Assembly (NCBI GenBank): GCA_945947575.1
Contig: CAMEYM010000024.1
Coordinates: 1-39,331 of the forward strand
Source: Rhizobium sp. Q54
GTDB taxonomy: Bacteria > Pseudomonadota > Alphaproteobacteria > UBA2966 > CAIVPW01
Direction of reading: 5' to 3'
DNA: 39,331 bases
Position 1 is the first letter of the stretch. The number at the start of each line of letters is the position of its first letter. Under the pieces are notes generated by a model, which saw only the letters and a program-made list of their open reading frames with translations, made no database searches and was not told the DNA's origin. This document shows, one piece after another, positions 4,740-13,706 of the stretch. The translations under genes and the position numbers were made by a program.

Positions 4740-5632
4740 TGGCGTCCGATCGTCGCGCCGGAGGCGCGCATCAAACAGAACGCAATCTTGGGGGCACACG
4801 TCCGCGCACCGTTCAGGTCGGCAACGTCTCGATCGCCAACGATCGTCCGCTCGCGCTCATCGCCGGCCCGTGCGCGATGGAGAGCCGCGCGCACGCGATG
4901 GAGATGGCGAGCGCGCTCAGCGAAATCACCAAGAAGCTCGGCATCGGCCTCATCTACAAGACGTCGTTCGACAAGGCCAACCGCACCAAGAGCGACGCCT
5001 TCCGCGGCGTCGGGCTCGACGCGGCTCTCGAGGTGTTCGCCGAGGTGAAGGCGAAGTTCGGCTGCCCGGTACTCACCGACGTTCACGACGCCGACCAGTG
5101 CGCGCCGGTCGCCAGGGTCGTCGACGTGCTGCAGATCCCGGCGTTCCTGTGCCGCCAGACGGACTTGCTGATCGCTGCCGGCAAGACCGGCGCTGTTATC
5201 AACGTCAAGAAGGGCCAGTTCCTGGCGCCCTGGGACATGAAGAACGTCGCCGCCAAGGTGGCGAGCACGGGGAACGACAAGATTCTGCTGACCGAGCGTG
5301 GCGCTTCGTTCGGCTACAACACGTTGGTTTCCGATTTCCGCGCGCTGCCGGCGATGGCCGAGACCGGGTATCCGGTCGTGTTCGACGCCACGCATTCGGT
5401 GCAGCAGCCGGGCGGGCTCGGGGATCGCACCGGCGGCGAGCGCAAGTACGTGCCGGTGCTGGCGCGCGCGGCCGCCGCGGTCGGCTGCGCGGCGATCTTC
5501 ATGGAAACCCACCAGGATCCGGACAACGCGCCGAGTGACGGACCCAACATGGTGCGCTTGTCGGACTTGCCGGAATTGCTCGAAACCGTTATCGCACTCG
5601 ACCGAGTCACCAAGGCCCGCACCGTCGCGTAG
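4739..5632 (+). CDS. kdsA: 3-deoxy-8-phosphooctulonate synthase (KDO-8-P synthase)
   Basis: This enzyme condenses phosphoenolpyruvate with arabinose 5-phosphate to give KDO 8-phosphate, the precursor of the inner core sugar of lipopolysaccharide, so the organism is Gram-negative. Family motifs include LALIAGPCAMES, YKTSFDKANRTK, FLCRQTDLL, INVKKGQFLAPWDM, VVFDATHSVQQPGG and FMETHQDPDNAPSDGPNM. The ATG at 4739 overlaps the pyrG stop by one base and gives 297 residues, about 20 more than usual. The extra N-terminal residues (rich in Arg and Gly) look non-conserved. The open frame continues upstream to 4442, but that part lies inside pyrG and is not a credible start. Confidence 0.96.
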
Positions 5633-6952
<1,320 letters not shown>

Positions 6953-9866: not shown

Positions 9867-11111
9867 ATGCCGATCCCCGTCACCATGCCGGCGCTGTCGC
9901 CGACCATGACCGAAGGCCGCCTGGCGACCTGGCGCAAGCGGGAAGGCGACGCGGTCAAGGCGGGCGAGGTCATCGCCGAGATCGAGACCGACAAAGCGAC
10001 CATGGAACTCGAGGCCGTCGATGACGGCACGCTCGGCCGCATCGTCGTGCCTGCTGGCGCCGCGGGCGTAAAGGTCAACAGCGTCATCGCCATGCTGCTC
10101 GAAGAGGGCGAAGACAAGTCGGCGCTGGATCGCGCACCCAAGGCGGCCGCGCCGGTAGCGGTAGCGAAGCCCGCCGCGTCAGTTGCGCCTGCGCCTGCAC
10201 CTGCGCCGCCCGCTGCTCCCAAGCCGAACGGCTCTGCTCGTGTCCTTGCCAGCCCGCTCGCGCGTAAGCTCGCGAAGGAGCAGAGCATCGATCTCGCTTC
10301 GTTGAAAGGTTCCGGACCCGGCGGCCGCGTCGTGCAGCGCGACCTCGCCAGCGCGTCCAGTGCGCCTGTCGCCGCAAGACCTCCGGTGCTGCCTACGGAA
10401 GCGGGCACGCTGATCCCGCACAACAATATCCGTCGCATCACGGCCGAGCGCCTCACCGAGGCGTGGCGGACGATCCCGCACATCTATCTCAACGTCGATT
10501 GCACCGTCGATCGGCTGATGGAGGCGCGCGCCGAGCTCAACGCGCGGGCGGGCCTCCTGCCGAAGGCGGGCTCTTCGCCCGACGGTACCAAGCTCAGCGT
10601 CAACGACTTCGTCATCCGCGCCGTCGCGTTCGCCTTGCGCAAGGTGCCGGAGATGAACTCGCAGTGGACGTCGGCCGGCACGTTGCGCCTGGCGTCCATC
10701 GATGTCGCCATCGCGGTGGCGCTGCCCAACGGCCTCATCACCCCGATCATCCGCCGCGCCGACACAAAGGGCCTCGCCGAGATCTCCAGCGAGATGCGCT
10801 CGCTTGCCGAGAAGGCGCGCGCCGGCAAGCTGATGCCCGAGGAGTACCAGGGCGGCGGCTTCGCCATCTCCAACCTCGGCATGTACGGCATCAAGGACTT
10901 CGGCGCGATCGTCAATCCGCCCCAGGCCGGTATCCTCGCTGTCGGGGTCGCCGAGAAGCGGCCCATCGTCAAGAACGGCGCGCTCGCCATCGGCTCCGTC
11001 ATGAGTTGCACGCTGTCGTGCGACCATCGCGTCGTCGACGGCGCCATCGGGGCGCAATTCCTGACCGCGGTCAAAGGCTTCCTCGAGGAGCCGATGACCA
11101 TGCTGCTCTAG
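9867..11111 (+). CDS. pdhC: Dihydrolipoamide acetyltransferase (E2) of pyruvate dehydrogenase
   Basis: E2 forms the core of the complex and passes the acetyl group to coenzyme A. The order is one lipoyl domain (residues 1-78, lysine in [12 protein letters not shown]), an Ala/Pro linker, a peripheral subunit-binding domain (about residues 125-160, VLASPLARKLAKEQ...GPGGRVVQRDL) that holds E3 or E1, and the catalytic acyltransferase domain with the active-site motif SCDHRVVDGAIGAQFL near the C-terminus. The length of 414 fits a one-lipoyl E2. The N-terminal [15 protein letters not shown] is typical of the acetyl-transferring type. Eleven bases separate it from pdhB. Confidence 0.97.
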   Translation: MPIPVTMPALSPTMTEGRLATWRKREGDAVKAGEVIAEIETDKATMELEAVDDGTLGRIVVPAGAAGVKVNSVIAMLLEEGEDKSALDRAPKAAAPVAVAKPAASVAPAPAPAPPAAPKPNGSARVLASPLARKLAKEQSIDLASLKGSGPGGRVVQRDLASASSAPVAARPPVLPTEAGTLIPHNNIRRITAERLTEAWRTIPHIYLNVDCTVDRLMEARAELNARAGLLPKAGSSPDGTKLSVNDFVIRAVAFALRKVPEMNSQWTSAGTLRLASIDVAIAVALPNGLITPIIRRADTKGLAEISSEMRSLAEKARAGKLMPEEYQGGGFAISNLGMYGIKDFGAIVNPPQAGILAVGVAEKRPIVKNGALAIGSVMSCTLSCDHRVVDGAIGAQFLTAVKGFLEEPMTMLL

Positions 11112-11121
11112 GGGGGCGAGA

Positions 11122-11904
11122 ATGGGTGCGAAGTACGACAAGCCTACGCAGGCGCTCATGCGCGACTTTGCGAGCAAGCATCTGAGCGCGGGCCAAGTGT
11201 TCGGCAAAGAGCCGGCCGTTCGATGGTTCGCCGAGAACTATCCGAAAATCAATCCAACGACTGTGAAGATTCACATGGAGGCGATGTCCGTGAACTCACG
11301 GAATCGCATGCATTACCCGAACATCAAGCCCACCAGTGGACACGACCTCTTTCTTAAGATCGGAAAGGGCCAATATCGACTCTGGGATCCAACGACGGAC
11401 CCAGCGCCAGTCTATGCGACGACGCTCGCGCAGGCGCCTTCTGTGGAGGTGTCTGAGGACCTTTCCGACGGCGATGCGACAGAAGCGGAGGAACGACGCG
11501 GTTCCGAGACGGAGTTCGCTTTGGAGGCGCACCTTCGCGACTACCTTGCACGCAATCTCGGGTTGCTGGAGCCGGGGCTGCATCTCTACGAGGAAGAAGG
11601 GATTACCGGCATTGAGTTTCCCGTGGGCGGTCGATTCATCGATATCCTCGCGGTTGATCGAGATGGTTCGCTTGTTGCAGTTGAACTGAAAGTGTCGCGT
11701 GGGTACGACCGCACCGTAGGCCAGTTGCTTCGTTACATGGGCTGGCTGGAGAACAACCTTGCGAACGGGAAGCAGATAAGGGGCATCATCGTCGCAAGCC
11801 AGATCACCGATGATCTGCGATTGGCGTGCTCGCGCATCGTCGGAGTGACGCTCGCTGAGTACGAACTCTCGATGAAGCTAAAGCCCGTAATGGTGCGTGC
11901 TTGA
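11122..11904 (+). CDS. Predicted nuclease: DUF7669-like N-terminus plus NucS/DUF91-like PD-(D/E)XK domain
   Basis: The protein has 260 residues. Residues 1-90 (KPTQALMRDFASKHLSAG, YPKINPTTVKIHM, DLFLKIGKGQYRLWDP) resemble the DUF7669 domain found next to nuclease domains. After an acidic linker (about 105-130), residues 130-255 show a NucS/DUF91-like restriction fold: Glu135 in EFALEAHL, Asp174 in GGRFIDILAVD, the E-x-K pair in VAVELK (Glu188, Lys190) and Gln201 in VGQLLRYMGWL. All expected catalytic positions are present, so it may cut DNA; no substrate can be named. It sits 10 bases after pdhC and overlaps the next start. GC is visibly lower: a hand count gives 33/60 at 11281-11340 against 40/60 at 10981-11040. 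That suggests insertion by transfer. Confidence 0.72.
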   Translation: MGAKYDKPTQALMRDFASKHLSAGQVFGKEPAVRWFAENYPKINPTTVKIHMEAMSVNSRNRMHYPNIKPTSGHDLFLKIGKGQYRLWDPTTDPAPVYATTLAQAPSVEVSEDLSDGDATEAEERRGSETEFALEAHLRDYLARNLGLLEPGLHLYEEEGITGIEFPVGGRFIDILAVDRDGSLVAVELKVSRGYDRTVGQLLRYMGWLENNLANGKQIRGIIVASQITDDLRLACSRIVGVTLAEYELSMKLKPVMVRA

Positions 11905-12299
11905 CCAACACCAACGTCAATGTGGCGAAGCAGTATCTGCACGCCATCGCCAGCAACGTCAGCGGCGAAGATCTCGCCAAGTTCTCCAGTCCCGGCATGA
12001 CCATCGAGGAGAGGCCGAACCGCGTCTATCCCAAGGGACAGACGCGCGCCGTGGCGGCGATGCTCCATGGCCTGGATCGCAGCAAGAAGATGCTGCGGTC
12101 CCATCGCTACGAGGTGCTGCGCGCCGCGTCGGAGGGCAGCCGCATCGCCCTTGAGGTGCTGTGGGAGGGCGTGCTCGCCATTCCGCGCAGCACGCTTGGG
12201 GCCGGAGCGACCATGCGCGCCCACTCCGGCATGTTCCTGGAATTCCGGGACGGCAAGATTATCTCTCAGCGCAATTACGACTACTGCGAACAGTTCTGA
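11901..12299 (+). CDS. SnoaL/NTF2-like small protein
   Basis: The protein has 132 residues and the look of an NTF2-like cone fold: an N-terminal helix pattern (NVAKQYLHAIASNVSGEDLAKF), a central RYEVLRAASEGSRIALEVLWEG strand pair, and the typical late MRAHSGMFLEFRDGKIISQRNYDYCEQF. Members are small ligand-binding proteins or enzymes, and the sequence alone gives no reaction. The start is probably a TTG at 11901 whose bases overlap the TGA of the nuclease gene, giving tight coupling. A GTG at 11922 is the alternative. Composition is back to the level of the pdh genes, so it may be older in this place than the gene before it. lpdA follows after 12 bases. Confidence 0.75.
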   Translation: MTNTNVNVAKQYLHAIASNVSGEDLAKFSSPGMTIEERPNRVYPKGQTRAVAAMLHGLDRSKKMLRSHRYEVLRAASEGSRIALEVLWEGVLAIPRSTLGAGATMRAHSGMFLEFRDGKIISQRNYDYCEQF

Positions 12300-12311: not shown

Positions 12312-13706
12312 ATGGCTGACAAATTCGATCTCGTCGTCGTGGGCGGCGGGCCTGGCGGCTACGTCGCTGCGATCCGCGCCGCGCAACTTGGAATGAGCAC
12401 CGCGCTGGTCGAGTCCGATCACCTCGGCGGCGTCTGCCTCAACTGGGGCTGCATTCCGACCAAGGCGCTCTTGCGCGCCTCCGAAATCCATCACCTGCTG
12501 CATCACCTCGACGAGTTCGGCTTCGCCGCCGACAACATCCGCTTCGACATGGCCAAAGTCGTCGCGCGCAGCCGCAAGGTAGCGCGCCGGCTGTCCATGG
12601 GCGTCAGCGGCCTGCTGAAGAAGAACAAGGTGAAGGTCATCGACGGCCGCGGCCGCCTGAGCGCACCCAACACCATCGCGGTCGAGAAGGACGGCAAGCC
12701 CGTTGCGGAGCTTTCCGCACCGCACATCATCCTCGCCACCGGCGCCCGTGCGCGCCAGCTGCGGGGGCTGGAAGCGGACGGCCAGCGCGTCTGGACCTAC
12801 CGCGAGGCGATGGTCCCGGCGGCGATGCCCAAGTCGCTCTTGGTCGTCGGCTCCGGCGCCATCGGCATCGAGTTCGCCAGCTTCTATCGTCAGATGGGCG
12901 CCGAAGTGACTGTGGTTGAACTGCTCGATCGCATCCTGCCGGTCGAGGACGAGGAAATCTCCGACCTCGCTGCGAAGCAGTTCACGAAGCAGGGTATCGT
13001 CCTGCATACCAAGTCCAAGGTCGGAGTCCTCAAGAAGTCCGCCGACGGCGTCGTTGCGACCATCGAGACTCCGGCCGGCGAGCAGCGCATCGAGGTTGAG
13101 CGCGTTATCTCGGCGGTGGGCATCGTCGGCAACGTCGAGAACATCGGGCTCGAGGCCGCGGGTGTGAAGGTCGACAAGACGCACGTCGTGGTGAACCAGT
13201 GGGGCGAGACGGGCGTCAAAGGCGTCTACGCCATCGGCGACCTGGTCGGCCCGCCGTGGCTTGCCCACAAGGCGAGTCACGAGGGCGTCGTCTGCGTCGA
13301 GCGCATCGCCGGCAAGGACCCGCACCCGATTGACGTTTCATCCATCCCGGGCTGCACCTATTCGATGCCGCAGATCGCCAGCGTCGGCCTGACCGAAGCC
13401 AAGGCCAAGGCAGAGGGCAGGGAGGTCAAGGTCGGCCGCTTCCCGTACCTCGCCAACGGCAAGGCCATCGCCATGGGCGAGGCCGAAGGCCTGGTGAAGA
13501 CCGTTTTCGACGCCAAGACCGGCGAGCTCCTGGGCGCCCACATGATCGGCGCCGAGGTCACCGAGCTCATCCAGGGGTACGTGGTGGCCAAGACCCACGA
13601 GACGACCGCCGCGGCCCTTGCCGAAACCATCTTCCCGCATCCGACGCTGTCCGAGATGATGCACGAGTCCGTGCTTGACGCCCTCGGGCGGCGGATACAC
13701 TTGTGA
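12312..13706 (+). CDS. lpdA: Dihydrolipoyl dehydrogenase (E3)
   Basis: E3 reoxidises the dihydrolipoyl groups of the 2-oxo acid dehydrogenase complexes and passes electrons to NAD. The 464 residues are standard. Motifs in order: FAD-binding [13 protein letters not shown], the redox disulfide in [19 protein letters not shown]-binding [19 protein letters not shown], the second FAD motif [10 protein letters not shown], and the interface His/Glu in [11 protein letters not shown]. The gene completes the pdh cluster but is separated from pdhC by two genes not needed for the complex. Its stop overlaps the GAGG ribosome site of lipA. Confidence 0.97.

Follow-up and report, generated by a model that had tools for sequence, protein, structure and literature searches.

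Results

A predicted nuclease gene lies within a pyruvate dehydrogenase operon

The window, by which we mean the whole stretch of 39,331 nucleotides from Rhizobium sp. Q54 that was analysed, contains a pyruvate dehydrogenase operon that carries an inserted gene of foreign origin. A first-pass annotation, made from the letters alone, had described an intact gene within this operon, and the ORF at 11122–11904 on the + strand is indeed intact and encodes a product of 260 residues. The same annotation had placed the gene between pdhC and lpdA, which holds for the pdhC side but not for adjacency to lpdA, as a SnoaL-like ORF intervenes. The features are as follows, each with its basis in brackets.

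9867–11111, + strand: pdhC, dihydrolipoamide acetyltransferase, intact, upstream of the nuclease gene (Pfam 2-oxoacid_dh, lipoyl and E3-binding domains)
11111–11121, + strand: purine-rich, Shine-Dalgarno-like stretch GGGGGGCGAGA, directly 5' of the nuclease ATG (sequence reading)
11122–11904, + strand: DUF7669-NucS_C nuclease gene, inserted and foreign (ORF call, Pfam, GC, codon usage, relatives)
11146–11382, + strand: DUF7669 domain, residues 9–87, a winged helix in the AlphaFold model and a probable DNA reader (Pfam, structure)
11524–11817, + strand: NucS/EndoMS-type PD-(D/E)XK nuclease domain, residues 135–232 (Pfam, fold comparison)
11524–11526, + strand: codon of catalytic Glu135 (invariant wherever the region is present in alignments)
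11641–11643, + strand: codon of catalytic Asp174 (invariant in alignments)
11683–11691, + strand: codons of Glu188-Leu189-Lys190, the (D/E)XK motif (Glu188 and Lys190 invariant)
11722–11724, + strand: codon of Gln201 (invariant in alignments)
11901–12299, + strand: SnoaL-like ORF, the target site of the insertion, between the nuclease gene and lpdA (ORF list, Pfam, relatives)
12312–13706, + strand: lpdA, dihydrolipoamide dehydrogenase, intact, downstream (Pfam Pyr_redox domains)

The stretch GGGGGGCGAGA is a plausible ribosome-binding site for the nuclease gene. At the other end, the nuclease stop codon TGA (11902–11904) overlaps, as TTGA, the TTG start of the SnoaL-like ORF (11901–11903), so that the overlap with the next start noted earlier is borne out with this TTG, which we assigned from the reading frame and from relatives; the start codon is ATG in most relatives and TTG in the window. 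The Pfam SnoaL_2 match to this ORF (E 1e-4) falls under the cut-off for that family. The nuclease gene is present in a single copy in its genome, and there is no cognate methyltransferase between pdhC and lpdA, consistent with the earlier remark that a methylase partner is absent.

The base composition of the gene sets it apart from its surroundings. With a GC content of 57.4%, it is the lowest 780-base stretch of the window, which has a mean of 67.3 ± 2.2% (s.d.) and a lowest value elsewhere of 62.2%. The neighbouring pdh, lpd and lip genes range from 65.5 to 68.3%, and the SnoaL-like gene stands at 63.4%. The low GC reported in the first pass was thus real, although its hand-counted value of about 55%, set against about 67% next to the gene, was somewhat off. 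Third-position GC is 0.685 in the nuclease gene, compared with 0.86–0.90 in its neighbours, and the codon-usage log-likelihood is −1.38, compared with −0.72 to −0.90. Together with the absence of the gene from close relatives (see below), the low GC and deviant codon usage support the proposal of an insertion of foreign origin.

The product joins a winged-helix domain to a NucS-type nuclease domain

Pfam assigned residues 9–87 to DUF7669 (E 3e-16) and residues 135–232 to NucS_C (E 4.8e-13), each over its curated cut-off, as expected from the earlier reading of a DUF7669-like N-terminus followed by a NucS/DUF91-like domain. Both domains were over their cut-offs in the window protein and in seven of nine relatives scanned whole, and DUF7669 was present in all 13 aligned N-termini. 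The five catalytic positions picked out in the first pass, E135, D174, E188, K190 and Q201, are all present and are invariant in two alignments of relatives, one of ten sequences and one of fourteen, the latter including a single fragment without the E135 region.

A full-length AlphaFold model made from 14 sequences (mean pLDDT 79.6) consists of two folded domains and a disordered linker at about residues 100–128. The best Foldseek match to the nuclease domain was NucS/EndoMS (E 7e-8). Comparison of this domain with 2vld gave a VIA Z of 15.4 and an rmsd of 1.8 Å over 108 residues at 26% identity, and comparison with the DNA-bound 5gke gave Z 15.4 over 115 residues; the matches ranking after the NucS/EndoMS entries had Z scores of 10.8 and lower. 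The structure search of the product therefore found a NucS-like nuclease fold, and not a non-nuclease one.

The N-terminal domain, when predicted alone (pLDDT 85), had winged-helix topology, and nearly all of its near structural matches were winged helices. Among the best were Fur at Z 7.4, MCM at Z 6.8 and DpnI at Z 6.9 over 67 residues; resting on a predicted model, these three matches are tied and lie under the level at which kinship could be claimed. A Foldseek search with the DUF7669 domain gave no match under E 0.5, and a PDB profile search with DUF7669 alone found no relative.

The gene entered a decaying slot of the operon

To place the insertion, we compared the pdhC-lpdA interval with that of close relatives. 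Within the reach of their contigs, all seven same-genus and same-family genomes show pdhA-pdhB-pdhC-lpdA-lipA in this order. No full relative of the nuclease was found in four same-genus, three same-family and 53 other same-order or same-class genomes, so the gene is not a universal occupant of this position with matching GC. One genome, G007, has an intact SnoaL gene immediately 3' of pdhC without the nuclease, and SnoaL remnants follow pdhC in three same-genus genomes (G001, G002 and G004), which points to pdhC-SnoaL-lpdA as the ancestral order; in G003, G005 and G006 there was no SnoaL trace after pdhC. The SnoaL-like slot itself (window 11901–12299; L018, L020, L021 and L022) offers a small case of repeated, independent decay of one operon member.

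Judged from these comparisons, the nuclease entered the window lineage almost exactly at the SnoaL start codon, in this repeatedly decaying slot. The junctions read ...GGCGAGA-ATG-GGTGCG and GTGCGT-GCT-TGACCAACACC and have only TG in common; no further recombination features were seen there. Because the ends share so little, the insert has the appearance of a single bare ORF gained illegitimately and almost without a seam, with a good purine-rich stretch for ribosome binding ahead of it. Misassembly seems unlikely, because the operon genes are intact at both junctions and the end of the insert coincides with a start codon. Loss from all of the relatives is a less simple alternative to gain, and one that the base composition opposes. 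That composition, the absence from relatives and the empty sites after pdhC all support a recent acquisition. Since no other copy of the family was found in a pdh operon, the landing in this operon is a curiosity of the insertion event.

Two broken copies of the family were seen elsewhere, one in G013 of the same order (L025:7416-7939), split over two reading frames, and one in a Leptolinea MAG (L007:5001-5741), with one internal TGA. Given these copies, the gene family is lost as well as gained.

The family is rare, scattered and found on mobile elements

Relatives of the nuclease are 39–54% identical to it and rare, occurring in about 1% of genomes: 6 of 385 genomes from the class, 3 of 398 from the phylum and 1 of 369 from a second class, with the query or an already known carrier among those counted each time. 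For the DUF7669 domain the counts were 4 of 240 class genomes and none of 14 control genomes. Members are scattered, turning up in three phyla and on plasmids and prophages, usually as lone genes and with neighbours that vary; carriers include Gammaproteobacteria, Chloroflexota and Planctomycetota and a betaproteobacterial plasmid. An alignment query of IMG/VR recovered relatives on eight viral or proviral contigs; phage records and PHROGs gave no match to the family, viral scans that used single relatives as query added nothing new, and E. coli genomes, searched at the DNA level, contained no member.

The family tree mixes taxa: the alphaproteobacterial copy G629, for instance, falls in with copies from Hydrogenophaga, a phage and a P. 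aeruginosa plasmid. Between Alcanivorax and Microbulbifer the DNA is 79% identical across precisely the length of the gene (5000–5747), and the flanks are unrelated. Pairwise dN/dS within the family is 0.04–0.14, with dS near saturation for the first pair, and by this measure the family is under strong purifying selection. It behaves like accessory cargo, varying among close relatives. The window protein belongs to the annotated group 'endonuclease NucS domain-containing protein', whose function is predicted.

Neighbourhoods of other copies

Several copies adjoin genes linked to defence: an MmeI-type IIG enzyme (L026), an Abi protein (L027), PDC-S20 and NucC-like genes (L056) and an McrB-like AAA gene (L009). 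The 928-residue neighbour in the last case (L009:1703-4489) combines its McrB-like AAA domain with a region that matches PDC-S02 in its N-terminal part, from which it would seem that the same defence parts recur in varied combinations. Most chromosomal copies, the window copy included, lie outside defence islands. Methylases are mostly absent beside relatives, the exceptions being L026, where the type IIG gene is self-contained, and the phage L057, with a phage methylase.

The phage copies occupy accessory positions. In L057 the nuclease gene has a ParB-like/DNA methylase gene on one side and the gene of the terminase small subunit on the other, and in L052 it lies 3' of tail-fibre assembly and Com genes. 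Two related prophage copies, L054 and L055, have downstream sequence in common by descent only.

More distant relatives were found in two plasmid settings. On an Acinetobacter plasmid, a NucS-domain protein of 311 residues (L059:4524-5459) is encoded inside a type I restriction operon with the order S-M-S-NucS-Abi-R, which places this distant relative firmly in a defence context. On a Cupriavidus plasmid, a divergent DUF7669-NucS protein (L060:4908-5612) is encoded between an error-prone DNA polymerase and LigD/Ku genes, which suggests a repair role for that branch.

Comparison with known nuclease systems

The nuclease domain most closely resembles NucS/EndoMS (2vld, 5gke), with which the protein shares the C-terminal PD-(D/E)XK fold, the D-ExK-Q catalytic set and about 26% identity. 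The protein differs in having a DUF7669 winged helix in place of the NucS N-terminal DNA-binding domain, and in that its family is scattered and accessory and its host has MutS. Against the NucS equivalog model it scored 59.5 bits, compared with a cut-off of 216, over the C-terminal region only.

PADLOC's PDC-S02, like the window gene, is a single gene, and its C-terminal nuclease domain matches ours (E 3.5e-22). However, the match covers only profile positions 170–306 of 308, the first 170 being replaced by DUF7669. PDC-S02 is a candidate defence family, and we found no experimental validation of it in the literature that we checked.

Shedu is a one-protein defence that couples a sensor to a PD-(D/E)XK nuclease and has exchangeable N-terminal domains (PMC12137116). 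Our protein shares with SduA the layout of reader plus PD-(D/E)XK nuclease, with a structural match of Z 7.5, but its nuclease is NucS_C and it has no DUF4263 signature: DUF4263/SduA_C was absent among its Pfam matches up to E 1. In three related proteins SduA_C appeared at E 0.01–0.03, scoring 15.0–16.6 bits against a cut-off of 27. By these profile tests, the window protein is neither a functional NucS nor a member of Shedu or PDC-S02.

Winged-helix fusion nucleases are methyl-dependent restriction enzymes that usually occur without a methylase, one of them being virus-borne (PMC11037411, PMC10101028). The N6-methyladenine-dependent type IV enzymes among them, DpnI, FcyTI, HhiV4I/HHPV4I and the wH-GIY-YIG proteins, resemble our gene in fusing a winged helix to a nuclease in a stand-alone gene, usually without a methylase; they differ in that our nuclease is NucS-type, an architecture that the survey in PMC11037411 does not mention. 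The DpnI match to the N-terminal domain is noteworthy because the DpnI winged helix reads N6-methyladenine and the fusion nucleases are methyl-dependent. We found, however, no support for it at the level of profiles, with an hhalign probability of 0.2% for DUF7669 against DpnI_C, both profiles being shallow. In a hand alignment in which the pairing of the two helices is our own and a 3-residue numbering offset is assumed to locate the DpnI residues, K229 and R231 of the KIR motif of DpnI_C pair with T48 and K50, both of which vary in the family. Dam was over its cut-off in none of 11 carrier genomes and in 24 of 200 background genomes, a difference that is not significant with so few carriers. 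We hypothesize that DUF7669 reads modified DNA and, more weakly, that it reads methyladenine. Residues N58, R62 and R86 of the domain are conserved and may line a pocket for such reading.

In the open-licence literature we found no description of a DUF7669-NucS fusion, no use of the name DUF7669 and no paper covering both Shedu and NucS. Isolated NucS C-terminal domains are already known in other architectures (PMC5290159), and DUF7669-NucS_C is apparently an undescribed kind of reader-nuclease fusion.

Discussion

A putative single-gene restriction nuclease

The reading that we favour, and hold to be somewhat probable, is that the gene encodes a horizontally acquired, single-gene conditional restriction nuclease against foreign DNA. 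A nuclease without a methylase or antidote that is apparently tolerated in a housekeeping operon must be inactive on host DNA. This expectation, the accessory-cargo behaviour of the family, the nuclease half in common with PDC-S02 and the Shedu-like layout together lead us to favour conditional restriction, which the defence-gene neighbours in several cases (L026, L027, L056 and L009) also support. The DUF7669 winged helix would recognise a feature of incoming DNA, whether a base modification or a DNA structure, that is missing from the host chromosome, and the NucS-type domain would then cut that DNA, perhaps as a dimer as in NucS. Recognition of foreign DNA only would explain both the missing methylase partner and the tolerance of the gene inside a housekeeping operon. 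The gene probably entered by illegitimate recombination, between flanks with only TG in common, at a position now being lost in many relatives, and would use the pdh operon promoter.

Several observations count against defence. PDC-S02 is only a candidate, and the nuclease half is the sole part that matches it; most chromosomal copies lie outside defence islands; DUF7669 showed no similarity to the DpnI reader in a comparison of shallow profiles, and K229/R231 are not apparently conserved; and the Cupriavidus plasmid relative has error-prone polymerase, LigD and Ku genes as its neighbours.

Should the defence reading prove true, a new sensor and the NucS nuclease core would join the list of one-gene immune nucleases, and the mixing of reader and cutter would parallel that in Shedu and the winged-helix fusion enzymes. 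It would also mean that a restriction gene can move as a bare ORF and live on a housekeeping promoter, at a location outside defence islands where guilt-by-association searches would miss such genes. A bolder version is possible, though we hold it only tentatively: DUF7669 would be an unrecognised class of winged helix that reads modified phage DNA, and when fused to NucS it would make a new self-contained type IV enzyme, mobile as a bare gene among phages, plasmids and chromosomes and drivable from a housekeeping operon. The protein is small, single and intact, which makes the question easy to test.

Alternative explanations

The family may be functional elsewhere while the window copy is a recent, neutral or slightly costly gain without a selected role in the operon. 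The base composition, still unadjusted to the host, the repeated loss of the landing-site gene in sister species and the degraded copies seen in G013 and Leptolinea would all fit such a passenger; against it speaks that the ORF is intact, has every catalytic residue and is preceded by a plausible ribosome-binding site, and we think it unlikely.

Slightly less probable still is an extra DNA-repair gene, recruited for NucS/EndoMS-like incision of mismatches, flaps or damaged DNA, even though the nuclease domain is closest, in sequence and in structure, to the mismatch endonuclease NucS/EndoMS and the distant Cupriavidus plasmid protein, the strongest pointer to repair, lies beside a polymerase gene and the NHEJ genes LigD and Ku. 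Against mismatch repair stand the lack of the NucS N-terminal domain, whose place DUF7669 takes, a score far under the NucS equivalog cut-off (59.5 against 216 bits) and the presence of MutS in the host genome. Moreover, a gene present in about 1% of genomes and varying among close relatives is unlike a housekeeping repair gene, and NucS C-terminal domains are known in isolation from the rest of NucS (PMC5290159). Where the first-pass annotation had left the choice between a defence and a repair enzyme without a methylase, the balance tips towards the former.

It had also raised a selfish insertion, which in the sense of homing is not supported, as relatives occupy different places. A homing-type nuclease would be copied into empty sites after cutting, with the pdhC-SnoaL junction as its target, and the clean insertion of a lone nuclease gene at a start codon, the Alcanivorax/Microbulbifer similarity that stops exactly at the gene ends and the L057 copy next to a terminase small-subunit gene, a frequent location of homing nucleases, would suit it; we consider it very improbable, because no two separate lineages have an insertion site in common and no other pdh-operon copy was found, because the window junctions have only TG in common with no further recombination features seen, and because PD-(D/E)XK homing enzymes are rare.

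Sequence features beside two other copies

A small PDDEXK_5/HEase-like gene lies 5' of the Alcanivorax copy (L005:4440-5001); after it come a perfect hairpin, CCATGCACGC...GCGTGCATGG, and GTTGGGC, a motif similar to the end of an integron attC site. We considered an integron cassette here and rejected it, as a pattern scan upstream of this copy found no complete attC site. In phage L053, two similar intergenic repeats (5860–6000 and 6757–6846) flank the nuclease gene with the pattern TGACGTTTCG...CTGCGCAT.CACG.TGCGCA...CGAAGCGCCA...TTCACAACAA, as though the ORFs were modules that each bring their own hairpin.
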